Shown: positions 11,996 through 31,172 of the stretch, in pieces | How positions within the stretch are numbered: position 1 is the first letter of the stretch | Layout of the letters: each line of letters opens with the position of its first letter | Assembly (NCBI RefSeq): GCF_024721265.1 | Contig: NZ_JAMXOC010000005.1 | Coordinates: forward strand, 62,001-126,000 | Length of the DNA stretch: 64,000 nt | Source: Ohessyouella blattaphilus | GTDB lineage: Bacteria > Bacillota > Clostridia > Lachnospirales > Lachnospiraceae | Direction: 5' to 3' | Translations under genes and position numbers: made by a program | Notes under the pieces: generated by a model | The model's database searches: none | Told to the model about the DNA's origin: nothing | What the model saw: only the letters and a program-made list of their open reading frames with translations

Positions 11996-12199
11996 ATGCC
12001 GCCCATCATCACCTACCGCTGCGGCGTCTGCAAACGAGAATATCCCGGCCATGAGGAAGCCGTCCGGTGTGAGGAATCGCATCTGGCGGCAGTTTCCGTT
12101 GTGGTGAAGAATCATGGCATCCACGAGTATCCCTACTCGGTGGCCGTCACCTTCTCCAACGGCGAGACGCGGGAATATGTGGCAGACCATATGCGGTAA
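11996..12199 (+). CDS. Small zinc-ribbon-like protein, unknown function
   Basis: The protein has 67 aa. CGVCKREYPGHEEAVRCEESH gives C-x2-C and C-x3-H pairs that could bind one zinc. The GGAG in the preceding gene's last codons is eight bases before the ATG, so translation is probably coupled. No family recognised. Confidence 0.7.
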   Translation: MPPIITYRCGVCKREYPGHEEAVRCEESHLAAVSVVVKNHGIHEYPYSVAVTFSNGETREYVADHMR

Positions 12200-12225
12200 C
12201 AACTTTTTGAAGGGAGCTGATATTT

Positions 12226-12723
12226 ATTGCTGTACATGAACAGGTAAATGATAAGGCGGTGGCTGTCACTGTCCAGGGCGCCAAGCTCACCGGGCGGCTG
12301 CTTGCCAAGGCTCTGCAAAAGTTTCTCGCGGCGCAGAAAGCCCGGAAGCAGAAAAAGCAAATACCGGGCGCCTACAAGGGCAAGCAGACCGTCAAGCAGC
12401 TTGTAGGCCAGAACGCCGGCGTCACCTCGATTGACGTATCCAAAAGCGGCATCCGTGATTTTGAGCGGTACGCCCGAAAATACGGCGTGGACTTCGCGCT
12501 CAAAAAGGATTCCTCCACCATGCCGCCCAAATGGATTGTGTTCTTCAAGGCGCGGGACGCCGACGCCATGACCGCCGCCTTCTCCGAGTTCACGGCCAAA
12601 ACCATGAAGCGCAGCGCACAGCGGCCTTCCGTGGTGAAGCTGCTGCGCAAGATGGTGGACCTTGTGAAGAATCAGGTGGTGGACCGCCAGAAGCACAAGG
12701 AACGCGGAGGTCCGGAGCTATGA
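12226..12723 (+). CDS. PcfB-family (DUF3801) coupling-protein partner
   Basis: About 165 aa. Homology (VNDKAVAVTVQGAKLTGRLLAKALQKFL) starts upstream of the GTG at 12259, and the only well-spaced start after GGGAG is an ATT at 12226, so the start is uncertain. The centre (IDVSKSGIRDFERYARKYGVDFALKKD, WIVFFKARDADAMTAAFSEF) is typical of PcfB/DUF3801 proteins, which act with the relaxase and coupling protein in Gram-positive conjugation. The tail contains RPSVVKLLRKMVDLVKN and ends GGPEL, a partial version of the tail on the establishment proteins. Its stop overlaps the VirD4-like start (ATGA). Confidence 0.82.
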   Translation: MAVHEQVNDKAVAVTVQGAKLTGRLLAKALQKFLAAQKARKQKKQIPGAYKGKQTVKQLVGQNAGVTSIDVSKSGIRDFERYARKYGVDFALKKDSSTMPPKWIVFFKARDADAMTAAFSEFTAKTMKRSAQRPSVVKLLRKMVDLVKNQVVDRQKHKERGGPEL

Positions 12724-14510
12724 AGAAGATGGACATTACCGGCAATCTGAAAAAGTATCTGCTTCCCAATTTCCCCTACATTCTCGTCTTCTGGTTCGCA
12801 AACAAGCTGGGCGAGGCGTACCGGCTGGCTGAGGGTGCCGATATGATGGGAAAGCTGATGGGCAGCATGTCCACGCTGGGCAGGGTGATGGCAAATCCCC
12901 TGCCTTCCTTTATGCCCTTCGACCTGCTTGTAGGCGCGGCGGGCGCCGCTATCATCTACGCGGTGGTGCGCAGCAAGAAGAAAAACGCCAAGAAATACCG
13001 CAAGGATGTGGAGTACGGCAGCGCCCGGTGGGGCACGGAAAAAGACATCAAGCCATACATCGACCCTGTGCCGGAGCAGAACATCATCCTGACGGCGACG
13101 GAATCCCTTACCATGAACAGCAGGCCCAAGCAGCCAAAGTACGCCCGCAACAAAAACGTGCTGGTGATCGGCGGCTCCGGCTCCGGCAAAACGAGGTTTT
13201 TCTGCAAGCCGAACCTCATGCAGCTTCATTCTTCCTATGTTTGCACGGACCCCAAGGGCACGATTTTGGTTGAGTGCGGCAAGCTGTTCCAGCGCAACAA
13301 CTATCGTATCAAGGTGCTCAACACCATTGATTTCAACAAGAGCATGAGGTTTAACCCTTTCGCCTACATCAAGAACGAAACCGACATTTTGACGTTGGTA
13401 AAGACCTTCATCGCCAACACCACCGGCGACCAAAAGGGCGGCGACGGCTTCTGGGAAAAAGCAGAAATCTTGCTTTATACTGCGCTTATCGCCTACCTCT
13501 ACTATGAGGCGCCCCCGGAGGAACAGCACTTTGGCACCCTCTGCGATTTCATCAACGCAATGGAGGTCCGGGAGGACGACGACCAGTTCGAGAACGCCAT
13601 CGACCTGATTTTCAAGGCGCTGGCGGAGGAAAAGCCCGGCTGCTTCGCGGTGCGGCAATATCAGAAATACAAGCTCGCCGCAGGCAAGACGGCAAAATCC
13701 ATTTTGATTTCCTGCGCCGCCCGGCTTGCACCATTTGACATCCAGGCGGTGCGGGACCTGCTATCTGTGGATGAATTGGAGCTCGACACCCTCGGCGATG
13801 AAAAGACGGCGCTTTTCGTCATTATCAGCGATACCAATCCGGCTTTCAACTTCATCCCGGCGATGATGTACTCCATGATGTTCAATACCCTCTGCGACAA
13901 GGCCGGGGCCTCCGAGGGCGGGCGGCTGAAAGTGCATGTGCGCTGTATTCTCGATGAATTTGCCAACGTGGGCAAAATCCCCAATTTTGAGCAGCTTATC
14001 GCTACCATCCGCAGCAGGGAGATTTCCGCCTGCGTCATCCTCCAATCCCAATCCCAGCTCAAAGGTTTGTACAAGGACCACGCAGATACTATCGTGGGTA
14101 ACATGGATACCACCCTGTTTCTCGGCGGAAAGGAGAAGGGCACGCTCAAAGAGATTTCGGAGCTTTTGGGCAAAGAGACGGTGGATTTATACAACACCAG
14201 CGTCACCAAAGGCCAATCCGAGAGCCACGGCAAGAATTTCTCCAAGGTGGGAAAAGACCTCATGAGCGTGGACGAGCTTGCCGTCATGGATGGCGGCAAG
14301 TGTATCTGCATGGTTCGCGGCGAGCGGCCGTTCCTCTCGGATAAGTTCGACCTGCTAAAGCATCCCAACTACAAGTACCTGTCCGATGCCGATAAGCGCA
14401 ACGCCTTCAACATCGAGAAATACCTGTCAACACGGCTCCGAACCAAGCCGGAGGATGTCTTCGAGGTATATGAGGTGGGCGCTGTGGAATCAGCGGAATC
14501 GCCGGCATAA
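12720..14510 (+). CDS. VirD4/TraG-type coupling ATPase (T4CP)
   Basis: The protein has 596 aa. Two N-terminal membrane segments lie at ~15-30 and ~65-85, followed by YGSARWGTEKDI. Walker A is GGSGSGKTRF (~150-160) and Walker B is CILDEFANVG (~411-420). TTMNSRP-like and FQLIATIR-like motifs typical of T4CPs are replaced by NFEQLIATIRSREISACVILQSQSQL. The enzyme is an inner-membrane hexameric ATPase that recruits the relaxosome to the channel. The ATG overlaps the PcfB stop, so the two are coupled. It closes the early operon. Confidence 0.95.
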   Translation: MKKMDITGNLKKYLLPNFPYILVFWFANKLGEAYRLAEGADMMGKLMGSMSTLGRVMANPLPSFMPFDLLVGAAGAAIIYAVVRSKKKNAKKYRKDVEYGSARWGTEKDIKPYIDPVPEQNIILTATESLTMNSRPKQPKYARNKNVLVIGGSGSGKTRFFCKPNLMQLHSSYVCTDPKGTILVECGKLFQRNNYRIKVLNTIDFNKSMRFNPFAYIKNETDILTLVKTFIANTTGDQKGGDGFWEKAEILLYTALIAYLYYEAPPEEQHFGTLCDFINAMEVREDDDQFENAIDLIFKALAEEKPGCFAVRQYQKYKLAAGKTAKSILISCAARLAPFDIQAVRDLLSVDELELDTLGDEKTALFVIISDTNPAFNFIPAMMYSMMFNTLCDKAGASEGGRLKVHVRCILDEFANVGKIPNFEQLIATIRSREISACVILQSQSQLKGLYKDHADTIVGNMDTTLFLGGKEKGTLKEISELLGKETVDLYNTSVTKGQSESHGKNFSKVGKDLMSVDELAVMDGGKCICMVRGERPFLSDKFDLLKHPNYKYLSDADKRNAFNIEKYLSTRLRTKPEDVFEVYEVGAVESAESPA

Positions 14511-14515
14511 AGGCA

Positions 14516-14544
14516 CCGGGAGGGTGCTGTCTGCATCCTCCCGG
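14516..14544 (+). terminator. Hairpin after the coupling-protein gene
   Basis: CCGGGAGG (14516-14523) pairs with CCTCCCGG (14537-14544). There is no clear T run, so termination may be weak. Confidence 0.5.
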
Positions 14545-14552
14545 CAAATGCT

Positions 14553-14891
14553 TCATTTCTGCTTTTCCCTGCGCCGACGCCGTTCTTTCAGCTTTTTCAC
14601 ATATTCGGGTATTGTGGTTGCGGCGTTGTTCTGCTCAATGATTTCGATTTCGTCAACCCTTTTGCAGAGAACCACGGCGATTTCGGCGGCGGGCATACCG
14701 CTTGCCAGCAGGCGGCAGACGATTTCCTCGCGTTCGCGCTCCTCGCCGTGTTGCTTCCATAGGGCTTCCATGTTTGCCATGTGTTCAAAATAGCGTTCGG
14801 GCGGCATTGCGCGGAGTAGCTGGATCGTCATTTCCGCTGCTTCGGATTCCGACTTGCCGCTCAGGGAGTTCATTAAGGCGGATGTGTTCAT
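14553..14891 (-). CDS. Small helical protein related to the C-terminus of Rpn/PD-(D/E)XK transposase-like proteins
   Basis: The protein has 112 aa from ATG 14891, with AAAGGA nine bases upstream. The sequence EEIVCRLLASGMPAAEIAVVLCKRVDEIEII resembles the C-terminal helical repeats of Rpn-type recombination-promoting nucleases, but there is no nuclease domain. The C-terminus is very basic (KKLKERRRRREKQK). It is the only minus-strand gene between the coupling protein and the channel operon. Function unknown; it may be a fragment. Confidence 0.55.
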   Translation of the reverse strand: MNTSALMNSLSGKSESEAAEMTIQLLRAMPPERYFEHMANMEALWKQHGEEREREEIVCRLLASGMPAAEIAVVLCKRVDEIEIIEQNNAATTIPEYVKKLKERRRRREKQK

Positions 14892-14978
14892 AAAAGCACG
14901 TCCTTTGGTTTTATGTGCGGCATCATCCTTTGCCTGCCGCCGCATGTTTTCGGCTCAAAACAATTATACATCATCCAC

Positions 14979-14994
14979 CACCCCAAAACAACGA
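14979..14994 (+). promoter_or_regulatory. 16-nt leader sequence shared with the topB upstream region
   Basis: CACCCCAAAACAACGA is identical to 31143-31158. At both places it follows a TATACA/TATAAC-like box by about ten bases and precedes a strong GGAGG, so it is probably the start of the transcript. Confidence 0.5.
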
Positions 14995-15013
14995 AAAGAA
15001 GGAGGTTTTGCCC

Positions 15014-15043
15014 ATGAAAGCCCGCGCGCCTCCCGGAACATGA
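15014..15043 (+). CDS. Nine-residue leader peptide MKARAPPGT
   Basis: An ATG eight bases after a strong GGAGG (15001-15005) opens a ten-codon frame that ends just before three successive terminator hairpins. The arrangement fits an attenuation leader for the channel operon. A proline/arginine-rich peptide could stall ribosomes; this is inference. Confidence 0.5.
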   Translation: MKARAPPGT

Positions 15044-15066
15044 CGCTCCCCACAACAAAATATACA

Positions 15067-15115
15067 GCCCGCCGTTCAGCAGCGCCACCCCCTTGCTGAA
15101 CGGCGGGCTTTTTTT
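15067..15115 (+). terminator. Leader terminator 1
   Basis: A perfect 15-bp stem (15067-15081 with 15094-15108) is followed by seven T's. It lies 115 bp before the Maff2 gene. Confidence 0.9.
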
Positions 15116-15121
15116 GTTTTC

Positions 15122-15145
15122 ACGCCCGATTCTATCGGGCGTTTT
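15122..15145 (+). terminator. Leader terminator 2
   Basis: ACGCCCGA (15122-15129) pairs with TCGGGCGT (15135-15142), followed by TTT. Confidence 0.75.
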
Positions 15146-15153
15146 CTCGTCCA

Positions 15154-15183
15154 AGCGCACCGGGACATACCCGGCGCTTTTTA
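15154..15183 (+). terminator. Leader terminator 3
   Basis: AGCG..CCGGG (15154-15164) pairs with CCCGGCGCT (15170-15178) through a small bulge, followed by T's. Confidence 0.65.
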
Positions 15184-15229
15184 CATACATTCACTCACCA
15201 TCCACCCAAATCAAAGGAGGAACAACTAT

Positions 15230-15445
15230 ATGGAATTTTTCGGCGAAGCTATCAATACCCTCTCTATCCTCGTTGTCGCGCTGGGCGCGGGCCTTGCGGT
15301 GTGGGGCGTCATCAACCTTCTGGAAGGATATGGAAATGACAATCCGGGCGCAAAATCGCAGGGAATCAAGCAGCTTATGGCGGGCGGAGGCGTGGTTCTG
15401 CTGGGCCTTAACCTCGTCCCCCTGCTCGCAAATCTATTCGGATAA
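15230..15445 (+). CDS. Maff2-family small membrane protein
   Basis: The protein has 71 aa with two hydrophobic helices (~11-32 and ~48-68) joined by a polar loop (LEGYGNDNPGAKSQGIKQ). This is the pattern of Maff2 mobile-element proteins, which sit at the head of Tn1549-type channel operons and resemble VirB2-type pilin in size. GGAGG lies upstream. It is the first gene after the triple-terminator leader. Confidence 0.88.
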   Translation: MEFFGEAINTLSILVVALGAGLAVWGVINLLEGYGNDNPGAKSQGIKQLMAGGGVVLLGLNLVPLLANLFG

Positions 15446-15460
15446 GATCGGAGGTAGCCA

Positions 15461-16330
15461 ATGGACAGCCTGCTTGAAAAGATTGGCGAATGGATTCGGC
15501 AGGGCTTGATAGACGCCATCATGGGGAGTTTCACCGGCATGTTTGATTCCATCAATCAACAGGTGGGCGATGTCGCTGTGCAGGTGGGCACGACGCCGGG
15601 GGCATGGAACCCCGGCGTCTTCTCCATGATTCGGGCGCTTTCAGAAACCGTCATCATTCCAATCGCCGGTATGATTCTGACCTTCATCTTGTGCTACGAG
15701 CTAATCCAGATGATTATCGACAAGAACAACATGCACGACTTCGATACCTGGATATTCTTCAAATGGATATTCAAAACCTTCTGCGCCACCTACATCCTGA
15801 CCCACACCTTCGACATTGTGATAGGCATCTTCGATGTGGCGCAGCATGTGGTGAACGGCAGCGCCGGGCTCATATCCGGCTCGCTGGACATGAACAACGC
15901 CATTGCCCTTGATACCCTGCAAGCCCAGCTTGAAGCGATGGACGTGTGGGCGCTGATTGGGCTATGGATGCAGACCTCCATCGTATCCCTGTGCATCACG
16001 GCCATGTCAATCTGCATCTTCCTCATTATATATGGACGCATGATTGAAATCTACTTAACCATGAGCGTCGCGCCGATCCCGCTGTCCACGATGGCGAACC
16101 GGGAATGGGGCACGATGGGCCAGAACTACCTCAAAGCCCTGTTCGCTCTCGGCTTCCAAGGCTTTCTCATTATGGTGTGCGTTGCTATTTACGCCGTGCT
16201 GATACAGGGCATCGCCACGGCGGACAGCGTTCACATGGCGATATGGGGCTGCGCGGGGTATACGGCGCTGCTCTGCTTTACCCTCTTTAAGACCGGCTCA
16301 ATGGCGAAAAGCCTGTTCGGGAGCCACTAA
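15461..16330 (+). CDS. VirB6/TrbL-like channel membrane protein
   Basis: The protein has 289 aa with about six membrane segments (e.g. VIIPIAGMILTFILCYELIQMII, WIFFKWIFKTFCATYIL, SLCITAMSICIFLIIYGRMIEIYL, GFLIMVCVAIYAVLI). The GRMIEIYLTMSVAPIPLSTM stretch is typical of TrbL/VirB6-like proteins of Gram-positive ICEs. It forms part of the inner-membrane channel. It follows Maff2 by 15 bp and has its own GGAGG. Confidence 0.88.
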   Translation: MDSLLEKIGEWIRQGLIDAIMGSFTGMFDSINQQVGDVAVQVGTTPGAWNPGVFSMIRALSETVIIPIAGMILTFILCYELIQMIIDKNNMHDFDTWIFFKWIFKTFCATYILTHTFDIVIGIFDVAQHVVNGSAGLISGSLDMNNAIALDTLQAQLEAMDVWALIGLWMQTSIVSLCITAMSICIFLIIYGRMIEIYLTMSVAPIPLSTMANREWGTMGQNYLKALFALGFQGFLIMVCVAIYAVLIQGIATADSVHMAIWGCAGYTALLCFTLFKTGSMAKSLFGSH

Positions 16331-16351
16331 AAACGATTGGAGGACACCGAT

Positions 16352-17647
16352 ATGCCCGCTGTTGCGGTAAAAGAACCGTATACCCTTGTGCTGCGCGAGG
16401 ATGACGATATTCAGAATCCCCGCGAGGACATGGATAACTTCGGCACGATGGTCTGCTTCCATTCCCGGTACAACCTGGGCGATGCCCATGAGTACGGAGA
16501 GCCGAACGACTTTCTGCTCGACCTTGTGGACAGCACCGTATCCGATGACGACATTCTCGCGCATGTGCTGGCCGACAAAGCCAAATCCGTGAGGCTCCAG
16601 CCAAACATTGAGGACGACACATGGGAAGTCCTCATTATATACGGCGGTGAAGATAGCTGGGTGGCCGCCGACAGCTTCGACGCCGTGCAGGGCAACGAGG
16701 CCGAGGTCGCCTACTCCCTGATAGAGAGCATGAGCGATAAGGACCTGCTGGCGTTGGCAAAGGAGCATTGCGTCATCCTGCCGCTTTACCTGTACGATCA
16801 CTCCGGCCTGTCCATGTCCACCGGCTCTTTCATCGGCCGCGCCCATCACGCCGAATGGGATTCCGGGCAGGTGGGGTGGATTTACGCCGCCAAGGATACC
16901 ATCCTCGCGGAGTACGGCGGCGAAGCCCTGACCCCGGAACACATTGAAAAGGCCGAGGCACTGCTGAACGGTGAAGTTTCCTATTACGACGCCTACCTTC
17001 GCGGCGAGTGCTACGGCTTCCAGCTTTATGAACACGGCGCGGAAGTGGATAGCTGCTGGGGCTTCATCGGTTCGCCGGATGAGCTCCGGGCCGACATCGA
17101 AGACCATCTGCCGGAGGAATGTGCCGGCATGATGGAGGCTTTGGATTTCAATATCACCGACACGGCCATCAAAGACCTGCTGTATGAGCAGGAGCAAACC
17201 GCAATCAACGCATTGGAAGGAGAATATGACATGAGCAATACAGAAAAAGCCGCCGCGCTGGATTTCACCGCGCGGGCCTATCCCTTTAGCGAGCCCAAGG
17301 GCAATACCCTCGGCATGGCGAGCCTCACCATCGGCGGCGGCTTCGCCATCAATAATATTCGCATCATGAACAGCGAGAAGGGGCCGTTTGTGGCGATGCC
17401 CAGCGCCAAGGACAAGGAGGGCAATTTCAAGGATATTTGCTTCCCCACCACCAAGGAGGGGCGCGTCCAGATGAATCAGGTCATTATGGACGCCTACAAC
17501 GAGGCCCTGCTGGGCAAGGAGCAGACGGCGCAGCGTCCTTCCGCTGCGGAAAAGCTGAATGACGCCAAAAAAGAGGCGGCGAAAGCGCCCAAGGAGCCGA
17601 AGGCCGCCAAGGGCTCCAAGGCCAAGGCCGACCCCGGCATTGAATGA
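16352..17647 (+). CDS. Fusion of an ICE domain with a SpoVG domain, plus shared tail
   Basis: The protein has 431 aa; ATG 16352 lies seven bases after GGAGG. Residues ~1-290 form an acidic domain (VLREDDDIQNPREDMDNFGTMVCFHSRY and later YYDAYLRGECYGFQLYEHG) found in related ICEs but not characterised. Residues ~300-385 resemble SpoVG (ASLTIGGGFAINNIRIM, GPFVAMPSAKDKEGNFKDICFP), a small RNA/DNA-binding regulator. The tail has RPSAAEKLNDAKKEAAK but ends DPGIE instead of GPEL. It sits inside the channel operon, although it is probably not structural. Confidence 0.8.
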   Translation: MPAVAVKEPYTLVLREDDDIQNPREDMDNFGTMVCFHSRYNLGDAHEYGEPNDFLLDLVDSTVSDDDILAHVLADKAKSVRLQPNIEDDTWEVLIIYGGEDSWVAADSFDAVQGNEAEVAYSLIESMSDKDLLALAKEHCVILPLYLYDHSGLSMSTGSFIGRAHHAEWDSGQVGWIYAAKDTILAEYGGEALTPEHIEKAEALLNGEVSYYDAYLRGECYGFQLYEHGAEVDSCWGFIGSPDELRADIEDHLPEECAGMMEALDFNITDTAIKDLLYEQEQTAINALEGEYDMSNTEKAAALDFTARAYPFSEPKGNTLGMASLTIGGGFAINNIRIMNSEKGPFVAMPSAKDKEGNFKDICFPTTKEGRVQMNQVIMDAYNEALLGKEQTAQRPSAAEKLNDAKKEAAKAPKEPKAAKGSKAKADPGIE

Positions 17648-18084
17648 TGCTGGAACTGGTTCCCGTGTCGCTGGCGCAGGCCAATGAGTATGTGCGCCTG
17701 CACCACCGCCACCACAAGCCGGTTGTGGGGCATAAGTTTTCCATCGGCTGCAATTCGGACGGAAAGCTGTCCGGCGTCGCCATTGTGGGCCGCCCGGTGA
17801 GCCGCCATCTGGATAACGGCAGCACCTTAGAGGTCAACCGCCTGTGTACGGACGGCACGAAAAACGCTTGCAGCTTTCTCTACGCCGCCGCTTGGCGGGC
17901 AGCAAAGGCGATGGGCTACAAGAAGCTGATTACCTATGTGCTGGATACGGAAAACGGCGCCAGCGTCCGAGCGGCGGGCTTCCGCTGCGCCGGCCTTGCG
18001 GGCGGCAAGCGGTGGACCGGAGCGCGCAAGCCGCTCGAAGACCTGTATCCGGCGCAGATGAAGTACCGATATGAACGCGAATAG
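17644..18084 (+). CDS. XF1762-like protein (GNAT-fold type)
   Basis: The protein has 146 aa. The pattern SLAQANEYVRLHHRHHKPVVGHKFSIGC, GVAIVGRPVSRHLDNGSTLEVNRLCTDG and ACSFLYAAAWRAAKAMGYKKLITYVL resembles the XF1762 family, which has an acetyltransferase-like fold. The ATG overlaps the stop of the SpoVG fusion. Substrate unknown. Frequently present in mobile elements. Confidence 0.8.
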   Translation: MMLELVPVSLAQANEYVRLHHRHHKPVVGHKFSIGCNSDGKLSGVAIVGRPVSRHLDNGSTLEVNRLCTDGTKNACSFLYAAAWRAAKAMGYKKLITYVLDTENGASVRAAGFRCAGLAGGKRWTGARKPLEDLYPAQMKYRYERE

Positions 18085-18097
18085 GAGGTGATTTCCC

Positions 18098-18508
18098 ATG
18101 CCCTTTGTCCCTGTGCCGAAAGATTTATCCAAGGTGAAAACGAAGGTGGCCTTCAATCTCACCAAGCGGCAGCTCATTTGCTTTTCCGTTGCCGCCGCCA
18201 TCGGCGTGCCGACCTACCTGCTCACCAAGGGTGCCATCGGCAATACGGCGGCGGTGTTCCTGATGATCGGGCTGATGCTGCCCTTCTTCTTTTTCGCCAT
18301 GTACGAGCGGGATTCCCAGCCGGCCGAAAAGCTGCTGCGCAACATCATCCGCGCCAAGTGGCTATTCCCACCCACCCGGCCGTACAAAACCGACAACCTA
18401 TACCGCTATCTCGAACAGGAGGGAAACGCGATTGAAAGTGAAAAACCAACAGCAGGCCCGCCAGCAAAAAAAGCTGGCCGCCAATATCCGGCAGGCAAAA
18501 AGCGATAA
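18098..18508 (+). CDS. PrgI-family (VirB3-like) membrane protein
   Basis: The protein has 136 aa. It begins FVPVPKDLSKVKTKVAFNLTKRQLICFSV, then two membrane helices (~28-45, ~52-70), then YERDSQPAEKLLRNIIRAKWLFPPTRPYKT, the standard PrgI layout. PrgI/VirB3 proteins anchor the VirB4 ATPase to the membrane. Its last 77 bp overlap the VirB4 start, so the two are translationally coupled. Confidence 0.9.
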   Translation: MPFVPVPKDLSKVKTKVAFNLTKRQLICFSVAAAIGVPTYLLTKGAIGNTAAVFLMIGLMLPFFFFAMYERDSQPAEKLLRNIIRAKWLFPPTRPYKTDNLYRYLEQEGNAIESEKPTAGPPAKKAGRQYPAGKKR

Positions 18509-20930
18509 ATCCGACCTTCGCGCCCTGCCGGGCAAACAAAAGAATCTTGCCAAAGCCGCGCCGCCTGTGAAAAAGGGCGGCGTTTTTGATTCCCTGACGG
18601 AGCGGCTTTTCGGCCGGAAGGATAAGCCGCAGAGTGCCCAGCAGACCATCCCCTACAAGGAGATGTACCGGGACGGCATCTGCCGGGTAAAGGACCGCTT
18701 CTACACAAAATGCGTCACCTTTAACGATGTGAATTACCAGCTCGCCCAGAATGAGGACAAGATGCAGATATTTGAATCCTACTGCGATTTCCTCAATTTT
18801 TTTGATTCCACCATCAGCGTGCAGCTTTCCTTCCTCAACCAGAAGGGCAACATGCAGGATTTCCAAGCGTCCATCGACATCCCCGACCAGCAGGACGACT
18901 TCAATTCCATTCGCCGGGAGTACGCCGGGATGCTGAAAAACCAGCTCTCCAAGGGGAACAACGGCCTTGTGAAGACCAAGTATATCACCTTTGGCATTGA
19001 GGCGCCCAATCTGCGGGAGGCGAAAATGCGGCTGGAACGCATCGAGGCGGATGTCATCAACAACTTCAAGGTGCTTGGCGTACAGGCCCGCGGGCTCACC
19101 GGGCATGAGCGGCTGGAGGTGCTTCACGGCGCGCTGCATCCGGGCGGGCGGGAAAAACTGCGCTTCGACTGGAAGGACATCATCCGCACCGGCAACAGCA
19201 CCAAGGATTTCATCGCCCCGGCCTCCTTTGATTTCCGGGAGAAGGGCACCTTCCGCATGGGAACCACCATCGGGGCGGTGTCCTTCGTCCAGATTATCGC
19301 CCCGGAGCTCACCGACCGTATGCTGGCGGATTTCCTCGATTTGGACAGCGCCGTCATGGTGAACCTCCATATCCGCAGCATCGACCAGGCGGAGGCCATC
19401 AAGTCGGTTAAGCGCAAGCTCACCGACCTCGACCGTATGCGAATTGAGGAACAAAAAAAGGCGGTAAGGTCAGGATATGATATGGACGTTTTGCCGCCTG
19501 ATTTGGTAACTTACGGCAAGGAGGCGCAGAATCTTCTCACCGATTTGCAGAGCCGCAACGAGCGAATGTTCCTTGTAACGCTGCTCATCACCAACACCGC
19601 CAACACAAAACGGAAGCTGGAAAGCAATGTGTTCGCCGCCTCAGGCGTGGCGCAAAAATACAACTGCGCGCTGAAAAGATTAGAGTTTCAGCAGGAGCAG
19701 GGCTTCATGTCCTCGCTGCCCATCGGCTACAATGGCATCGAGATTGAACGCGGGCTTACCACCAGCAGCACCGCCATCTTCGTGCCCTTCACCACCTGCG
19801 AATTGTTCATGGGCGGGCAGGCGCTTTATTACGGCATCAACGCTTTATCAAACAATCTTATCATGGCCGATAGAAAGCGTTGCAAAAATCCGAACGGGCT
19901 TTTCCTTGGTACGCCGGGCTCCGGCAAGTCCTTCTCGGCCAAGCGTGAAATTGTGAATGTCTTCCTCATCACGGAGGACGACATCATTATCGCAGACCCG
20001 GAGGCCGAGTATTTTCCGCTGGTGGAGCGGCTTGGCGGGCAGGTGGTGAAGCTGTCGCCCACGTCGCCGCACTTCATCAATCCGATGGACATCAACTTGG
20101 ATTATTCAGATGACGAGGACCCGCTGACCTTAAAGAGCGACTTCATTTTGTCGCTGTGCGAGCTCATTGTGGGCAGCAAGGACGGCTTGCAGCCGGTGGA
20201 GAAGACCATCATCGACCGCTGCGTGCGGCTGGTGTACCGGGAATTTCTCACCGACCCGGTGCCGGAGCGGATGCCCATTCTGGAAGACCTGTACAACCTG
20301 CTCCGCGCGCAGACCGAGCCGGAGGCGCAGCGGTTGGCGACCGCCCTCGAAATCTACGTATCCGGCAGCCTGAATGTGTTCAACCACCGCACCAATGTCA
20401 ACCTCAACAACCGCCTCGTCTGCTACGACATCAAGGAGCTGGGCAAAAACCTCAAAAAAATTGCCATGCTCATACTCCAAGACCAAGTATGGAACCGCGT
20501 CACCCTCAACCGGGCGACCCACCGGACGACTTGGTTTTACATCGACGAAATCCACCTTCTTTTGAAGGACGAGCAGACGGCGGCCTACACGGTGGAAATC
20601 TGGAAACGCTTCCGAAAGTGGGGCGGAATACCCAGCGGGCTCACGCAGAACGTCAAGGACCTGCTGGCTTCGAGGGAGATTGAGAGCATTTTTGAAAACT
20701 CGGATTTTATCTATCTACTGAACCAAGCCCCCGGCGACCGCTCCATTCTCGCAAAGGCCCTGGGCATCTCACCCCACCAGCTTTCCTACGTCACCCACTC
20801 GGCGGCAGGCGAAGGGCTGCTGATTTACAGCAATGTTATCATTCCTTTCGTGGACCGCTTCCCCAAGGATACCGAGCTGTATACCCTTCTCACGACACGG
20901 CCGGAGGAAATGGCGGGGGCAGGCGCATGA
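18432..20930 (+). CDS. VirB4/TrsE-type conjugation ATPase
   Basis: The protein has 832 aa; the TTG at 18432 follows GGAGGG. The N-terminal ~60 residues are a basic extension. Walker A is GTPGSGKSFS (~492-501), Walker B is WFYIDEIHLL (~700) and a downstream GLTQNVKDLLASREIESIFENSDF block is typical of VirB4. This cytoplasmic ATPase powers assembly of the channel. The basic N-terminal extension (GKQKNLAKAAPPVKKGG) is rich in Lys/Ala and is shared in style by the next gene. Confidence 0.95.
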   Translation: MKVKNQQQARQQKKLAANIRQAKSDKSDLRALPGKQKNLAKAAPPVKKGGVFDSLTERLFGRKDKPQSAQQTIPYKEMYRDGICRVKDRFYTKCVTFNDVNYQLAQNEDKMQIFESYCDFLNFFDSTISVQLSFLNQKGNMQDFQASIDIPDQQDDFNSIRREYAGMLKNQLSKGNNGLVKTKYITFGIEAPNLREAKMRLERIEADVINNFKVLGVQARGLTGHERLEVLHGALHPGGREKLRFDWKDIIRTGNSTKDFIAPASFDFREKGTFRMGTTIGAVSFVQIIAPELTDRMLADFLDLDSAVMVNLHIRSIDQAEAIKSVKRKLTDLDRMRIEEQKKAVRSGYDMDVLPPDLVTYGKEAQNLLTDLQSRNERMFLVTLLITNTANTKRKLESNVFAASGVAQKYNCALKRLEFQQEQGFMSSLPIGYNGIEIERGLTTSSTAIFVPFTTCELFMGGQALYYGINALSNNLIMADRKRCKNPNGLFLGTPGSGKSFSAKREIVNVFLITEDDIIIADPEAEYFPLVERLGGQVVKLSPTSPHFINPMDINLDYSDDEDPLTLKSDFILSLCELIVGSKDGLQPVEKTIIDRCVRLVYREFLTDPVPERMPILEDLYNLLRAQTEPEAQRLATALEIYVSGSLNVFNHRTNVNLNNRLVCYDIKELGKNLKKIAMLILQDQVWNRVTLNRATHRTTWFYIDEIHLLLKDEQTAAYTVEIWKRFRKWGGIPSGLTQNVKDLLASREIESIFENSDFIYLLNQAPGDRSILAKALGISPHQLSYVTHSAAGEGLLIYSNVIIPFVDRFPKDTELYTLLTTRPEEMAGAGA

Positions 20931-20962
20931 GCAAGCTATCTTCGACAAGGGGGTGATTGTAT

Positions 20963-23779
20963 TTGAGCAGGGAATTTAAGTCCCGCGACAAGAAGGTTCA
21001 AAAGATGACGAAGGATGGCCTCGTAGAAATCAACCAAAGCACCGGCGAGGAATCCCGCATCTCCCAGCGCGGGCAGGATTTTCAGCTTGGCAGGAGCCAG
21101 CCGGAAAGCGGTTCGTCCTTCGGCTCCCGGCCACCCGCTGATGACGGCGGCCGCTCCCACCGGGGGCGGCACCACCCGGAGCCGGACGCGGGAACAGCAG
21201 CACCCTCCCCATATGAAACCGGGGACCATCAGGAACCGGAGCCGGATACAGGCCCTACTTTACATAATGAACAACCAGCACAAGAGAGCCGGCCAAGCGG
21301 AGATTTTTCACGCGGGCCGGTTTCTTCTATCCCGGAGGGCGCGGATTCGTCTGTGTCTTCCCCCAAGCAGCGCGGCACGAAATATGGGCAGCGGTTTGCG
21401 CAGGAAACAGCCCGACCGGATGCTGCGCCGGAAATCAGACGCACCTCGGACAATCTTTCCCCTGACACAGAACCCGCTTCCCCCAAGCAGCGCGGCACCA
21501 AGTACAGCCAGCGGTTCGCGCAGGAGCAGGCGCCAGCGGATTCCCCGCGGTCGGAGCCTGCTCCCAGCAAAACAGCGGAGCCATCTGCCCCTTCGTCCGG
21601 GGCGAAGCCCTCCCGGTTGCAGTTCAGCAAGGACGAGCTGCCCCCCGGCGCGGAGCCCGCCCCGGATAAGAAGCTGGCCCGGGCTCGTTACAAGGCGGAG
21701 GCGGCAAGCGCCAAACTGGACGCTGCGCGGGAAAAGCTGCCCACTAAGCGGGAAATCAAGATTCGGCGCGTCTATGACGAGCAGAAGGGCAAGACGAAGG
21801 CCAAGCTGGAATTTGAGAAACGTCCCCTTGCCCGCGGTGAGCAGGTGTTCAAGCCGCCCGCCATCGTCCGCAAACCGGCCGCCGCCGTGAAAGGAGGCAT
21901 TGGCGCGGCAGGCCGGACGGCCCACTTGAAGCTACACCAAAAAATCTATCAGGCCGAGGACGAGAATGTGGGCGTCAAGGCTGGGCACCGGGCGGAAATG
22001 GCCGGCGAGGGCGCCCTTCGTATGGGCCGGCGTGCTGCGGGTAAAGCCTACCGCTTCGCTAAGGACGCGCCCTACCGCACGGTGGAGAAGCTGGAAAAGC
22101 AGGCGGTCAAGGCCAATGTGAAGTTTTCCTACCGCAAGGCCTTGGCGGAGAATCCGCAGCTCAAAAGCAATGTTCTTTCCCGCATGATGCAGAAGCGTAA
22201 GATACAGCGGGCCTACGCCAAGGCTGCCAGAGACGCGAAAAAGGCAGGCAAGGCGGCCAAGAAGACCGGCTCGGCCATCTGTAACGCCCTCAAAGCCGTG
22301 GGCGGCTTCGTCAAGCGGCACCCGGTAGTGGCGGGCATCGTCGCCTTAATCCTGATGCTCCTGTTTTTCATCATGTCGGCTTTTTCCTCCTGCTCCAATA
22401 TGGCCTCCGGCGTCATGAGTGGCGTAGTCGCTTCCTCGTATGTGGCGGAGGACGCCGACATCGACAACGCCGAGCTGTCATATACCGAGTGGGAAACCGA
22501 CCTCTACATGGAGGCCATGAACGCCGAGGCGGATTACCCCGGCTACGACGAGTACAGGTTCAACGTGGGCAACATCAGCCACGACCCTTTCGAGCTCATG
22601 GCCTACTTAACCGCTGTGCATCAGGATTTCCAGTATGCCGATGTGGAAAGCGACCTGCGGCAGATTTTCGGGCAGCAGTACCAGCTCACCTTTACGCCAG
22701 AGGTGGAGATTCGTACCCGCATGGTGGAGAAAACCCGGTCGGTGTACGACCCTGTGACCGGGGATTACTTGGGCGAGGAAACCTACGAGGAAGAAGAAGA
22801 ATACGAGTGGCATGTGCTGAATGTCGCGCTGGCGGCCCGTTCCTTCTCGGATGTGGTTTCTTCCATGATGGATGCGGAGCAGGCAGAGATGTTCGAGGTC
22901 TACATGCAGACCAAGGGAAACCGCCAGTACCTCGTGAATCCCTTCGCCTTCAACTGGCTTCCATATGTCAGCGATTACTACGGCTGGCGTGTGCATCCCA
23001 TCACCGGGGCCAAGGATTATCACAAGGCAATCGACATCGCCGTGCCGCTTGGCACCGAAATCCTCGCCGGGCATGACGGTGTGGTGACGACCGCCACCAA
23101 CCATTCCAGCTACGGGCTGTATGTGGTGATCGAGGGGGAAAAGGGGCTTGTATCCAAGTACGCCCACTGCTCCCAGCTTCTTGTGTCGGCAGGGCAGGAG
23201 GTCAAGCAGGGGGATGTCATCGCCAAGGTGGGCAGCACAGGCGACAGCACCGGGGCGCACCTCCATCTGGAAGTCATCAAGAACGGCCAATACCTGAACC
23301 CCATCTTCTTTTCTGAAACCGGCGACGACGGCAGCGGGCGCATCCCGCCCGGTAGTCCCGGCGGTGTTTCATACCCCGACTATCCCGGCACACCCTTGGG
23401 CGACGGCAGCTATGCCGCCCTCATCGCCGAAGCGGAGCTGCACCTGGGCAAGCGGTATGTGTTCGGCGCTTCGGGCCCAGCCAACTTCGATTGCAGCGGT
23501 TATGTGTCCTGGGTGCTGGATAAATCCGGCGTAAAGCCCATGAGCCGCACCAACGCGCAGGGGCTTTTCAACATGAGCACCCCGGTATCCCCGGAGAACG
23601 CCCAGCCCGGTGACCTCATTTTCTTCACCGGGACCTATTCCACCCCCAATGCGTGCAGCCATGTCGGGATATATGTCGGCGGCGGTCAGATGATTCATTG
23701 CGGGGACCCCATCCAGTATACGTCCATCAATTCATCCTACTGGCAGAGCCACTTTTATAGCTTTGCCAGAATCAATTAG
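20963..23779 (+). CDS. Bifunctional wall hydrolase: M23 peptidase plus NlpC/P60 (C40)
   Basis: About 938 aa; TTG 20963 has AAGGGGG seven bases ahead. Residues 1-~450 are a polar, basic cytoplasmic region with two copies of SPKQRGTKYxQRFAQE. One membrane helix lies at ~457-477 (GIVALILMLLFFIMSAF). Outside it, a VirB8/linker-like region leads to an M23 domain (~678-785, HKAID and HLHLEV zinc ligands) and an NlpC/P60 domain (~815-938, NFDCSGYVSW nucleophile, CSHVGIYVG histidine). It should cut peptidoglycan locally so that the channel can pass. It is too long and membrane-anchored to be a phage lysin. Confidence 0.92.
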   Translation: MSREFKSRDKKVQKMTKDGLVEINQSTGEESRISQRGQDFQLGRSQPESGSSFGSRPPADDGGRSHRGRHHPEPDAGTAAPSPYETGDHQEPEPDTGPTLHNEQPAQESRPSGDFSRGPVSSIPEGADSSVSSPKQRGTKYGQRFAQETARPDAAPEIRRTSDNLSPDTEPASPKQRGTKYSQRFAQEQAPADSPRSEPAPSKTAEPSAPSSGAKPSRLQFSKDELPPGAEPAPDKKLARARYKAEAASAKLDAAREKLPTKREIKIRRVYDEQKGKTKAKLEFEKRPLARGEQVFKPPAIVRKPAAAVKGGIGAAGRTAHLKLHQKIYQAEDENVGVKAGHRAEMAGEGALRMGRRAAGKAYRFAKDAPYRTVEKLEKQAVKANVKFSYRKALAENPQLKSNVLSRMMQKRKIQRAYAKAARDAKKAGKAAKKTGSAICNALKAVGGFVKRHPVVAGIVALILMLLFFIMSAFSSCSNMASGVMSGVVASSYVAEDADIDNAELSYTEWETDLYMEAMNAEADYPGYDEYRFNVGNISHDPFELMAYLTAVHQDFQYADVESDLRQIFGQQYQLTFTPEVEIRTRMVEKTRSVYDPVTGDYLGEETYEEEEEYEWHVLNVALAARSFSDVVSSMMDAEQAEMFEVYMQTKGNRQYLVNPFAFNWLPYVSDYYGWRVHPITGAKDYHKAIDIAVPLGTEILAGHDGVVTTATNHSSYGLYVVIEGEKGLVSKYAHCSQLLVSAGQEVKQGDVIAKVGSTGDSTGAHLHLEVIKNGQYLNPIFFSETGDDGSGRIPPGSPGGVSYPDYPGTPLGDGSYAALIAEAELHLGKRYVFGASGPANFDCSGYVSWVLDKSGVKPMSRTNAQGLFNMSTPVSPENAQPGDLIFFTGTYSTPNACSHVGIYVGGGQMIHCGDPIQYTSINSSYWQSHFYSFARIN

Positions 23780-23793
23780 CGGGAGGTTTTTGC

Positions 23794-24096
23794 ATGAAGA
23801 CCAGTAAGATTATCAGTGACATCGAGAAGACCAAGACCAAAATCGGTGAGTTGCAGGCTAAGCTCCGGGATTTGGAACGCCTGCGCACCGAAACCGAGAA
23901 CACGGAGATCATCGAGCTTGTGCGGGCCATTGACGCCACGCCGGAGGAAATCGCCGTCATGCTTCGCGCCATGCGCGAGAGCCAGAAGCAGGAGGCCATG
24001 AAGCCGATGGCCCCGCAGTTTGACGACGACACCGCCGAGGTGGAGGATGTAGCGGAGCCCGCCGATGAAACGGAGGAAACCGACTATGAGGGATAA
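23794..24096 (+). CDS. DUF4315-family small coiled-coil protein
   Basis: The protein has 100 aa. Residues 5-35 form a heptad-like coil (IISDIEKTKTKIGELQAKLRDLERLR), followed by ELVRAIDATPEEIAVMLRAMRES and a very acidic tail. This is the DUF4315 pattern, regularly between the wall hydrolase and DUF4366 genes in Tn1549-type ICEs. Role unknown; it probably assists channel assembly. GGAGG precedes the ATG. Confidence 0.85.
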   Translation: MKTSKIISDIEKTKTKIGELQAKLRDLERLRTETENTEIIELVRAIDATPEEIAVMLRAMRESQKQEAMKPMAPQFDDDTAEVEDVAEPADETEETDYEG

Positions 24097-25210
24097 ACTG
24101 TTTGCCGGGATATTCGCGCTCATGCTCTGCATGGGCGTTTTCCTTTTCCCGGTCACGGCCTTTGCCGCCAGTGACACAACGCCGCCGACCATTGACGCCT
24201 GGCTGAATGGCGACACCCTGCACATCGAGGCCAGCGACGATGATTCCGGCGTGGAGGCCGTGTACATGGACAGCCGCCGCTACAACTATTTTGTGGACGG
24301 CGTGGTGCAGGTGAACGCCAAGGAATACCACGACAACAACGAAAATATCAGCGTCTACGCCATCGACTTTGCGGGGAACAAGTCAAAGGTGGTGGAGATA
24401 AAGAATCCCTTCTACAAGGCGCCGACAGCCCCGGCGCCTTCCTCCACCCCGCAGGGCACTACCCCTGCACCAAACCCGACGCCCGCGCCTTCATCTTCCA
24501 GCCAGACGAGCCGCCCGGCTTCTTCGTCCAGCGCGCCCAGCTCCACACCGGAGCCTTCCAGCTCGTCCGAGCCGGAAAGCACATCCTCCGCTGTGCCGGA
24601 ATCCTCCGGGGCTAACCCGTTCACCCCGGATGGGCAGGCGGAGGTTCTGGACAACGCCACCGATGGCGACGGCAAGGAGTTTTTCACCATCACCACCCCG
24701 GAGGGCAATATATTCTTCTTGGTGATTGACCGGCAGCGGGACAACGAAAATGTTTATCTGCTGAACGCCGTCACCGAATACGACCTTGCCCAGCTTGCCG
24801 AGGGCGGCGGCACGACCCAAAGCGCCATTCCCACCCCGGAGCCTACGCCCACGGAACCGGCGCCCTCCACCAGCGAGCCGGAGCCCACATCCGAGCCGGA
24901 ACCGGAGGCGGAGCCCGCTTCCGGCATGAGTACCGGCACCATCATCTTCATTGTGATTGCGGCCCTGGCTGCGGGCGGCGCGGGCTATTACTTCAAGATT
25001 TTGAAGCCCAAGCAGCAGGCTTCCGATTCCGAGGACGATTACGGCGAGTATGACGAGGACGACGAGGATATGGAGTATGAGGACGACCCGGAGGAATATT
25101 CCGACGAATACGATGTTTACGAGGGCGAACCGGATTACGGTTATCCCGATGCTGACGCCGATTTTGACCCCGGCGACGAGGCAGAGCCCCAGCCGGAAGA
25201 CGAGGAATAG
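24086..25210 (+). CDS. DUF4366-family secreted, membrane-anchored channel protein
   Basis: The protein has 374 aa from ATG 24086, nine bases after GGAGG and overlapping the DUF4315 end. A signal peptide (LFAGIFALMLCMGVFLFPVTAFA) is followed by a small Ig-like domain (~27-110), a Pro/Ser/Thr-rich linker, a conserved domain (~195-240, EFFTITTPEGNIFFLVIDRQ) and a second membrane helix (~288-308, TGTIIFIVIAALAAGGAGYY). The C-terminal ~65 residues are almost all Asp/Glu/Tyr. The conserved part matches DUF4366. It is probably a cell-surface part of the channel. Confidence 0.88.
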   Translation: MRDKLFAGIFALMLCMGVFLFPVTAFAASDTTPPTIDAWLNGDTLHIEASDDDSGVEAVYMDSRRYNYFVDGVVQVNAKEYHDNNENISVYAIDFAGNKSKVVEIKNPFYKAPTAPAPSSTPQGTTPAPNPTPAPSSSSQTSRPASSSSAPSSTPEPSSSSEPESTSSAVPESSGANPFTPDGQAEVLDNATDGDGKEFFTITTPEGNIFFLVIDRQRDNENVYLLNAVTEYDLAQLAEGGGTTQSAIPTPEPTPTEPAPSTSEPEPTSEPEPEAEPASGMSTGTIIFIVIAALAAGGAGYYFKILKPKQQASDSEDDYGEYDEDDEDMEYEDDPEEYSDEYDVYEGEPDYGYPDADADFDPGDEAEPQPEDEE

Positions 25211-25213
25211 CCC

Positions 25214-25825
25214 ATGAAAAAGCAGCCTGTACGAAAACAGCCCAAAAGCAAGAAAAAGACCGCCGCACTCGCCGTCGCCCTCCTTGTGGCGGCGGCGATT
25301 GGCGTTTGGCTCTATGTTTCCCCCATGCTGGAAAAGGGCCGCCTGCAGGAAACACAGGACCAGCTTCTTAGCAGCATCGAAACCGGCGACGGCGTGATTC
25401 CGCTGGAAAAGCCGGTTGCCGGTATTGTGGTGGATTACTACGACCCTGCGCCCCAGCCGGTAGCAAGTGAGGAACCGGCCTCCGAGCCCGAACCTATCTT
25501 TTGGACAGAGAGCGACGAGACGGAGCCCACAACAGATTCCGGCGAGGCCGTTATCGCTGGACACCGCAATTATGATTACGGCTCCCACTTCAACCGTCTG
25601 GGGGAAATCGAGGTGGGCGATGAAATCGGCTACCAGCCCAAGGACGGCGGGGCCATGCGCTTTCGGGTGTATGAAATCCTCGAAATCATCCCCGGCGATC
25701 AGGCCGCCTTCGAGCAGCCCGCCGACAAATCCATCATTACCCTTTTGACCTGCACGCCCATCCGCACGGCGACACACCGCCTGCTGGTTCGGGCGGATCT
25801 CATTTCGGAAGGAGATAGCCAATGA
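25214..25825 (+). CDS. Sortase, short form
   Basis: The protein has 203 aa. A membrane anchor (ALAVALLVAAAIGVWLYVSP) is followed by a compressed sortase core: AGHRNYDYGSHF (catalytic His), ITLLTCTP (catalytic Cys) and ATHRLLVRADL (Arg). Spacing is like class C/D enzymes that join pilins or anchor surface proteins. It is somewhat shorter than usual between the anchor and the histidine. Its stop overlaps the adhesin start (ATGA), so the adhesin is its likely substrate. Confidence 0.88.
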   Translation: MKKQPVRKQPKSKKKTAALAVALLVAAAIGVWLYVSPMLEKGRLQETQDQLLSSIETGDGVIPLEKPVAGIVVDYYDPAPQPVASEEPASEPEPIFWTESDETEPTTDSGEAVIAGHRNYDYGSHFNRLGEIEVGDEIGYQPKDGGAMRFRVYEILEIIPGDQAAFEQPADKSIITLLTCTPIRTATHRLLVRADLISEGDSQ

Positions 25826-30144: not shown

Positions 30145-30160
30145 CGGCTGACTGACAAAA

Positions 30161-30186
30161 GCAGGCGCGGGAGGTCCCGCGCCTGC
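30161..30186 (+). terminator. Hairpin after the adhesin gene
   Basis: Perfect 11-bp arms GCAGGCGCGGG and CCCGCGCCTGC around AGGT; the same stem sequence recurs at 37880. The T run is short, so read-through to the next gene is possible. Confidence 0.6.
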
Positions 30187-30212
30187 ACTACTTTTACGAT
30201 GGAGGCATGAAT

Positions 30213-30695
30213 ATGTACATCAAGAGATTTTCCATCCCCGGCTACGCTCACCTGTACCGCTCTTTGCTTCGCTTCTGCAAGCTGTCCGAAACGGAGGCAA
30301 AGGAGCTCTGCTACCTGTGGAACACGGCCAACCTCGACAGCATCCATTACGCCATGCCGGATGAATTTGTGATTGAATCGGACACCCACACCTTTTTCCG
30401 CTGCATGGACCGGATGCGCCGCCGCCCTTATCGCACGGAAGTCCAGCTTTACAAGGCGCTGGCGGCGCTGCGGCATAACATCGCCTACGACGCCCTCACC
30501 GAGAGGCAGCGGGAAGCCCTTGCCCGGCTGCGCTGCATCATGCGGGATTTGGATTACTATTTCTTCAAAGCCTACGGCGTGGACATTGACGACAAGCGCA
30601 CCGTATATGCCGAGTGCCGTTTTCATCTTCTGCCCTTCGAGGACGAGCCCGGCGTGTGCATGTGGCGGGAGTGGCGGACGATGCCCTGCGCGTGA
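30213..30695 (+). CDS. Conserved ICE protein, unknown function
   Basis: The protein has 160 aa; ATG 30213 is seven bases after GGAGG, better than the ATG at 30207. It is predicted all-helical: LYRSLLRFCKLSETEAKELCYLWNTANLD, RCMDRMRRRPYRTEVQLYKALAALRHNIAYDALTERQ. No catalytic motif. It closes the channel operon. Codon use matches the GC-rich backbone. Confidence 0.75.
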   Translation: MYIKRFSIPGYAHLYRSLLRFCKLSETEAKELCYLWNTANLDSIHYAMPDEFVIESDTHTFFRCMDRMRRRPYRTEVQLYKALAALRHNIAYDALTERQREALARLRCIMRDLDYYFFKAYGVDIDDKRTVYAECRFHLLPFEDEPGVCMWREWRTMPCA

Positions 30696-30738
30696 TGTAC
30701 AGATTAAGTTTTAAGCTCAACCATTTCTTGATAATCAG

Positions 30739-31086
30739 TTAGCTTACTTCTTCACCCAGCATGATTTTCGGCATAGTGGTAAGGCAGCGAGTCCACCGCT
30801 TATAGAATTGCTCGATACCCAGTTTCGACACCCGCGCATGTGTCTCTTTGTCCTGCAATGTCCAATGCAAGATATAGGTGACTTTGCCCACATATCGAGT
30901 AAGTGCAATGGGAGGCTCCCCATTTTTCACTGCGTTAAAGTCTTTTTGGCGGTGTGTTCTTTTTACATAGACAACATCAATTACACCGTCCTGCTCTTTA
31001 TAAAAAGCAGCTACTTCCCGCATAAGCTGTTCTATTTCATCTTGTTTTTCTATCTTTGCTTCATAGATGCAGATTTCATGAAACAT
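30739..31086 (-). CDS. ABM/quinol-monooxygenase-like ferredoxin-fold protein
   Basis: The protein has 115 aa. The N-terminal strand and helix (MFHEICIYEAKIEKQDEIEQLMREVAAFYKEQDGVIDVVYVKRTHR) and the later strand KVTYILHWTLQDKETHAR fit the dimeric alpha+beta barrel of antibiotic-biosynthesis-monooxygenase proteins. These degrade or detoxify quinones or similar compounds; the substrate is unknown. It runs opposite to its neighbours and is AT-richer, so it is likely a cargo insertion between the channel operon and topB. GAGGTG lies upstream of the ATG. Confidence 0.7.
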   Translation of the reverse strand: MFHEICIYEAKIEKQDEIEQLMREVAAFYKEQDGVIDVVYVKRTHRQKDFNAVKNGEPPIALTRYVGKVTYILHWTLQDKETHARVSKLGIEQFYKRWTRCLTTMPKIMLGEEVS

Positions 31087-31142
31087 TTTTACACCTCAAT
31101 TTGCACTGTATATCTTTACTTGAATAGTATAACACTCTCTTG

Positions 31143-31158: not shown

Positions 31159-31172
31159 TAAAGGAGGATTTC

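Follow-up and report, generated by a model that had tools for sequence, protein, structure and literature searches.

The window, the 64-kb stretch of DNA analysed here, contains a mobile element of the Tn1549/CD1115 type, and the gap under study sits in this element between the genes for VirD4 and Maff2. Such elements carry genes between bacteria of the gut and mouth, and little is known of what switches their transfer genes on. The gap and its neighbours are laid out as follows.

12717–14510 (+): VirD4-like coupling protein of the CD1115 family (NF045973), upstream of the leader
14553–14945 (-): divergent 130-aa ORF separating VirD4 from the leader, without Pfam or NCBIfam match
15000–15005 (+): Shine-Dalgarno (SD) sequence AGGAGG of the leader ORF, read from the sequence and scored as an 8-nt match
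15014–15043 (+): leader micro-ORF MKARAPPGT, nine codons, ATG at 15014, read from the sequence
15023–15034 (+): arrest-type core RAPP, codons 4–7 of the leader ORF, a motif taken from passages of PMC10951233, PMC12992588 and PMC7897499
15029–15031 and 15032–15034 (+): inferred P-site Pro6 and A-site Pro7, predicted from published RAPP stalls
15052–15062 (+): boxA-like linker ACAACAAAATA, matching the relaxed motif at 10 of 11 positions, or else the A-tract of a terminator that works in both directions
15066–15115 (+): terminator T1, a 17-bp stem (15066–15109) with a T run (15109–15115)
15122–15145 (+): terminator-like T2, a 9-bp stem (15122–15142) with a T tail
15153–15182 (+): terminator-like T3, a 10-pair stem (15153–15179) with a T run (15178–15182)
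15230–15445 (+): Maff2 (PF12750, Pfam E 7.6e-40), the first gene past the terminators
15461–16330 (+): VirB6/TrbL-like protein (PF19478, Pfam match)

After VirB6/TrbL, Pfam matches give a SpoVG-domain protein, PrgI, a VirB4-like ATPase and a peptidase. This order of channel genes is shared with several named plasmid stretches, and in some others Maff2 precedes VirD4 instead. A tblastn search with the divergent ORF against the fetched loci (L-numbers below) returned the element itself alone (L460, L466).

The original prediction had described a nine-residue frame behind a strong SD sequence and three successive T-tailed stems before Maff2, and both were borne out, with stems starting at 15066, 15122 and 15153. 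T1 folds at -33.6 kcal/mol (z -8.4), while T2 (-14.7 kcal/mol, z -4.4) and T3 (-13.9 kcal/mol, z -3.4) are moderate; 15044–15184 as one piece has a folding z of -10.1, and the whole 266-nt leader region one of -6.2, with none of 200 shuffles as good. A consensus terminator scan of 12000–17000 on both strands was not above chance (6 found, 5.8 expected), so the case for the terminators rests on the folding z-scores, the clustering of the stems and the relatives. The plus-strand promoter consensus scan over 12000–17000 gave no site of at least 9/12, and the best promoter-like site in 14500–15230 scores 8/12 (GGGACA-18-TACATT, 15162–15191) and would start transcription at about 15198. A strong start site between 15184 and 15230, the interval into which this predicted start falls, would make the terminators irrelevant to the operon; by this check it is unlikely.

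What the original prediction had missed is the R-A-P-P arrest motif inside the nine-residue frame and the recurrence of such micro-ORFs in related elements. An SD match of at least 6 together with an arrest-type core is found in one micro-ORF of the window, both strands included, where 0.4 are expected per strand, and it is unlikely that chance alone placed this sole example in the 285-nt gap. The stretch preceding the leader, ACCCCAAAACAACGA..AAGGAGG, recurs at 31143–31171, before an ORF starting at 31173 that presumably encodes a topoisomerase.

Recurrence of the leader and constraint on its peptide

Maff2 loci were collected from named genomes (the best 80 of a longer list), viral contigs (39), further genomes and plasmids, and in each gap from VirD4 to Maff2 (or to ssb) we listed the ORFs no longer than 60 codons whose SD match was at least 5; loci with short upstream DNA and L147–L150, which have no N-terminal Maff2 match, were left out. 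A micro-ORF encoding R[ASDG][PSEDG][PT] was found in 31 of 109 non-redundant regions (142 before thinning), whereas 100 dinucleotide shuffles averaged 0.32 and never exceeded 2. As the pattern had been derived from these regions, the count was repeated unchanged on regions fetched afterwards, and 14 of 64 non-redundant regions carried it (200 shuffles, mean 0.24, max 2). None of the 173 regions had such a micro-ORF on the reverse strand. With a slightly wider pattern, the leader was present in 34 of the 36 regions where ssb precedes Maff2, 18 of these 34 starting M[VIL]RIRSPT, and in 22 of the 137 regions without ssb, including L143 and L137, whose ORFs match the wide pattern, look spurious and were dropped from the layout and linker counts. 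Many of the ssb-type loci share ancestors, so these counts are not independent events. Typical peptides are MVRIRSPT, MIRIRSPT, MLRIRSPT, MKRIRSPTK, MRIRDSP, MKYIRDEPKK, MVLPPIRADP, METVRVRSPT, MVRAPP and MRIRAPP....

By this distribution, leader ORF and terminator recur before Maff2 or ssb and many of their linkers hold a boxA-like element, which upholds attenuation or antitermination as the type of control. The further claim that this is the main switch for mating was not sustained, as most elements without ssb lack the leader and so do L001 and L002, whose Maff2 is the most similar (about 90–92%).

The absence from L001 and L002 would also fit a chance RAPP match in an unrelated intergenic gap, as would the 0.4 such ORFs expected per window strand and the scarcity of DNA relatives of the leader stretch, which amount to fragments of 22–38 nt in 5 other genomes of 199 family genomes and to none in 72,556 plasmid records. 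Against this, about 0.003 such ORFs are expected per gap of this kind (0.32 over 109 regions), the position, the SD and the terminator spacing (offset 52) all fit, and by eye a similar stretch precedes the MVRAPP leader of L026. We consider a chance match very improbable, and the recurrent leader unit is probably functional.

Codon usage points to the peptide itself. All six Arg codons are used across the leaders, and Ser is written AGT, AGC, TCC or TCG. Variation within the six codons of [RK]xR[SA]P[TP], compared over 28 leaders, is without exception greatest at the third position, and for Pro it is confined to that position. When residues 2 and 4 are left unassumed, R-x-P-x occurs 50 times against 3.1 in shuffles, with Ser or Ala at position 2 in 42 and Thr, Pro, Ser, Asp or Cys at position 4 in 44. 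Both residues fall within pooled published sets in 42 of these 50, compared with 32 of 213 in shuffles, where the pooled sets (position 2: A, S, D, G, P; position 4: P, T, S, C, N, D, A, G) combine mutant scans of different arrest peptides described in passages of PMC7897499 and PMC12992588. R-x-x-P is likewise in excess (24 against 3.6 in shuffles), with Asp, Ser or Ala at position 2 in 23. We also asked whether the core codons sequester the SD, and this was rejected: over 53 leaders SD:core pairing is no more than chance gives, and the core therefore does not act as a helix that sequesters the SD. Judging from the codon-level evidence, we think that the peptide itself is under selection.

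In the cited passages (PMC10951233, PMC12992588, PMC7897499), RAPP stalls ribosomes with its third residue in the P site and its fourth in the A site, and the stalling resists EF-P. There, Ser, Asp or Pro in place of Ala at position 2 keeps partial arrest in ApdA and ApdP, any change from Pro at position 4 weakened both, and Thr, Ser, Asp, Cys and others in the A site are tolerated mainly in ApcA. These passages also report that RAPP peptides require the adjacent N-terminal region, whereas elsewhere in them a minimal RxPP sufficed; at the proposed stall in the window, the nascent chain has six residues. The window core RAPP is the strong form, and RSPT is the commonest core among the relatives. 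Arrest at RSPT lacks support in the cited passages, since Thr is tolerated mainly in ApcA and Ser at position 2 gives partial arrest.

The basic residue that often stands two before the core Arg brings in another explanation, a drug-sensing leader in which [RK]-x-R (here K-A-R) is the '+X+' stall, following the '+X+' rule for macrolide-type stalling, so that macrolides or other drugs of the tunnel or the peptidyl-transferase centre would induce the operon and S/A-P-T/P would merely tune the stall. The [RK]xR[SA]P[TP] pattern of 28 leaders favours drug sensing, and the available parts of the literature describe a drug-sensing leader ORF with an intrinsic terminator, MsrDL (PMC10314930), and an upstream ORF, toiL, that senses at least five drug classes (PMC12121999). 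No basic residue stands at that place in the RAEP, RADP, RDEP, MVRAPP, MKQIRSPT and TGYM[IV]RAPT leaders, and what the counted leaders have in common is R-x-P or R-x-x-P, which was also their selection criterion. Both points count against drug sensing, which we hold to be unlikely.

Several other observations were made at these Maff2 loci. In a TGYM[IV]RAPT-type set, a conserved stretch precedes the core and, by eye, most members have no ordinary start near the SD; L055, L071, L085, L125, L128, L145 and L310 have an [MR][IV]RAPT core upstream of Maff2, mostly after TGY or similar, and for such leaders AUU/AUC starts or an upstream start are possible. Where maff2 has no near SD, 17 of 43 non-redundant loci have one 53–130 nt before the ATG followed by a stem (0–7 in 20 shuffles). 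This stem has 7–16 bp and closes just before the maff2 ATG, so that a hairpin would seem to span the distance from SD to start (L289, L009, L192, L058, L020, L070 and others); its arms differ widely, one group shares AGCCGGAATC and, by eye, some loops hold a terminator-like hairpin. In several genomes the Maff2 matches are often split near codon 43–45, and in some of these genomes kilobases of the same contig separate the two halves, which would suit an insertion site used by another mobile element. Upstream of Maff2, L043 and L053 have palindromes such as TTTGCGACATCGTGTCGCAAAG (by eye, two copies in L043), a possible protein or RNA binding site.

Terminator spacing, the boxA-like linker and a proposed mechanism

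A terminator-like hairpin stands before the next gene in 47 of 53 leaders, against 10–21 in 10 shuffles. In 39 of the 47, counting from the first base of the start codon, a downstream stem begins after 46–65 nt (52 for the window leader); this does not hold for L029, L034, L057, L070, L093, L135, L190 and L290. The leader ORFs are 6 to 54 codons long, 11 of them reaching into the stem; that residues past the core appear to matter little is what efficient arrest at the core would lead us to expect.

Stems also lie upstream of the leaders, with a terminator-like hairpin within 130 nt in 39 of 53 (7–17 in shuffles), which would suit a plain insulator. On this account the terminators block stray transcription from the side of VirD4 and the divergent ORF, a weak promoter of the operon's own lies at about 15162–15191, where the 8/12 site is found, and the micro-ORF does little. 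A terminator acting as an insulator is established for Tn916 in the cited part of PMC11658703. The insulator leaves unexplained why a conserved SD, frame and peptide core stand at a narrow distance before the terminator, and we find it rather unlikely.

On the usual ribosome footprint, a ribosome stalled at codon 6 would reach to about 15046; T1 begins about 20 nt further on and would not be blocked directly. By eye, both the window (AAAGCCCGC with GCGGGCTTT) and L027 offer an antiterminator helix between the leader ORF and the terminator's 3' arm, and this candidate was rejected for want of enrichment over 44 loci, where the pairing has a mean rank of 0.61 against other loci and 0.68 against shuffles. 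The window pairing (-16.6 kcal/mol) ranks first of the non-ssb leaders paired with the window arm, and 64% of leader shuffles are as good; L027 stands at 4% and 12%. Neither direct occlusion of the terminator nor leader:terminator pairing is supported.

Between core and stem, the motif A[AC]AACT[AG]AATA is matched at 10 or 11 of its 11 positions in 20 of 53 leaders, against a mean of 0.5 and a maximum of 4 in 200 shuffles, and at 8 or fewer in 25 of 53. The stricter form A[AC]AACTGAATA occurs in 21 of the 173 gaps, against 0.16 (at most 2) in shuffles, and in none on the reverse strand, and an arrest-type core in any frame lies within 100 nt upstream of 13 of 22 A[AC]AACTGAATA sites, compared with 107 of 865 random places. 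These letters also form the tail of CCTTGAAAACTGAATA, an element situated between 16S and 23S rRNA in L382, before 23S in L381 and after 16S in L343, presumably the place of the rRNA boxA in these operons; it also occurs outside rRNA operons, for example in L347 and L379. A search for the hosts' rRNA boxA by way of 16S gave a match in 2 of 6 genomes, and no rRNA was found in the window's own genome. The window linker ACAACAAAATA itself matches 10 of 11 relaxed positions, as do 1% of its own 200 shuffles. The predicted fold pairs it with the U tract of T1, so it may be a mere A-tract, and as a boxA it may be called a fair, not decisive, match.

This enrichment in the gap, and the presence of the same tail in rRNA spacers of some of these bacteria and in Tn916 canT, could be read as boxA-type antitermination alone, in which NusB/S10 would load at the linker and the micro-ORF would play a secondary part or be there by accident. 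The many loci with 8 or fewer matching positions argue against it, as does the 5' CUUU half of boxA, which by eye is missing from most linkers. In the window, the linker may belong to the terminator, and a 14-nt boxA scan with TTGAMAACTRAATA, allowing up to 3 mismatches, found 8 sites against 12.6 expected, no excess. Together with the clear constraint at the level of the peptide, these points make antitermination by boxA alone improbable.

We therefore return to the arrest peptide. On balance, we judge it slightly more likely than not that the T4SS operon is gated by an attenuator built on a ribosome-arrest peptide, perhaps with antitermination coupled to it. The ribosome on the micro-ORF would arrest at RAP|P, where Pro6 occupies the P site and Pro7 the A site, and the arrested state and the boxA-like linker would together decide whether polymerase stops at T1–T3 or enters maff2-virB6 and the rest of the channel. 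The linker would be the candidate loading site and the leader ribosome the gate. Read-through would be processive, by a modified elongation complex, and not a local occlusion of one hairpin; this is favoured since T2 and T3 would still halt a polymerase slipping past T1. The likeliest signal would be stress on translation or a drug that targets the peptidyl-transferase centre. We lean modestly towards a polarity in which arrest turns the operon on, since SecM-type and drug-sensing leaders work in this way.

The downstream operon brings no extra support for processive antitermination, as proposed here and in the original prediction, since 15184–31200 shows no sense-strand excess of terminators, with 7 of 30 hits on the plus strand. 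Two candidates for the antitermination RNA or factor that was to be searched for, pemK RNA and a NusG/LoaP-type protein, did not turn up in the window either. Rfam over its 64 kb gave no pemK RNA (RF02913) at the gathering threshold, the match returned being an azaaromatic (yjdF) riboswitch elsewhere, at 34228–34326 (-) with 74.7 bits, and no NusG/LoaP-type gene was found in the window; the single PF02357 match in the genome lies outside it.

More broadly, in many Firmicutes elements of the Tn1549/CD1115 type, the loading of an rRNA-type boxA antitermination complex might be gated by an arrest peptide of very few residues, of the form R-[ASD]-P-[PTSD] or R-[AD]-[SEDP]-P, a generalisation that we offer as doubtful. 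If true, ribosome trouble, for example from antibiotics, would directly turn on assembly of the conjugation machine, which would make conjugation depend on how the ribosome fares, and a shared micro-ORF with a defined stall motif makes the control of transfer genes directly testable.

Comparison with known arrest peptides and antiterminators

The window leader has the R-A-P-P core of ApdA and ApdP, and many relatives have Ile or Val before the Arg, like SecM (...GIRAGP) and ApdP (...CI-RAPP), where the window has Ala. Like the RAPP/RAGP arrest peptides ApdA, ApdP, ApcA and SecM, the leader lies upstream of genes for a secretion-type machine. Unlike them, it has nine codons (its relatives have 6 to 54), which leaves no room for a signal sequence as well as an arrest site, and it is followed by a terminator and conjugation genes (Maff2, VirB6), not by sec or yidC genes. 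With nine residues and Maff2/VirB6 downstream, the leader is not a member of the family of arrest peptides that monitor Sec or YidC. PMC12992588 and PMC10987492 deal with arrest peptides encoded close to genes for protein localization and with RAPP motifs across proteomes, and a word search for 'conjugat' found it 0 times in the first and 1 time in the second. Among the literature matches listed (titles and starts of abstracts, subscription papers and preprints not included), there was no report of an arrest-type leader before conjugation genes, and by title none of the matches to the peptide letters RIRSPT/IRSPT concerned a bacterial leader peptide.

Among attenuators, trp-type leaders are ribosome-mediated transcription attenuators. 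MsrDL and the leader described here share a leader ORF with an SD, an intrinsic terminator and then the gene. In MsrDL, the stalled ribosome covers the terminator (PMC10314930, in the part cited), whereas here the stall would not reach it, leader:terminator pairing is not enriched and there are three terminators. A short upstream ORF proposed to sense translation stress, as we propose here, is described for toiL of E. coli topAI in the cited part of PMC12121999, where it is proposed to act via RBS occlusion and Rho and not via intrinsic terminators.

Conjugation operons with terminators and antitermination are known from the cited parts of PMC8955417 (conAn of pLS20) and PMC11658703 (canT of Tn916), and as in those systems the terminators ahead of the transfer genes described here need read-through. 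A boxA-like tail is shared with Tn916 canT; unlike canT, the window has no pemK RNA at the gathering threshold and has a leader peptide. A word search of the main texts of PMC11658703 and PMC8955417 found no 'boxA' and no 'leader' or 'leader peptide', and 'pemK' was likewise absent from that of PMC11658703.

In Tn925 on pCF10 (L468, NC_006827), the orf8-xis interval contains TTGTTCTTTGAAAACTGAATA at nt 119–139 past the orf8 stop (L468 27087–27067, -) and the pemK RNA RF02913 (Rfam, 55 bits) at nt 283–383 (L468 26923–26823, -). The cited part of PMC11658703 gives an active canT fragment at nt 126–577, a 162-bp deletion at nt 229–390 and an inactivating change of ATA to TGC from nt 283, and as nt 283–285 of L468 read ATA, the published and L468 coordinates can be tied together. 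By these coordinates, the 162-bp deletion removes the pemK RNA, the ATA change hits its first bases, and the active fragment starts inside the boxA-like element and keeps TTGAAAACTGAATA. The demonstrated Tn916 antiterminator canT thus contains an Rfam pemK RNA and most of an rRNA-like boxA. By Rfam, a pemK RNA is nearby in 7 of 16 loci with boxA-type sequences.

The proposed control would extend arrest peptides of the RAPP/SecM type from protein export to horizontal gene transfer, and below ten residues. Without the occlusion or the pairing geometry of the usual attenuators, the module nevertheless resembles, as far as its sequence tells, the known arrest-peptide attenuators.
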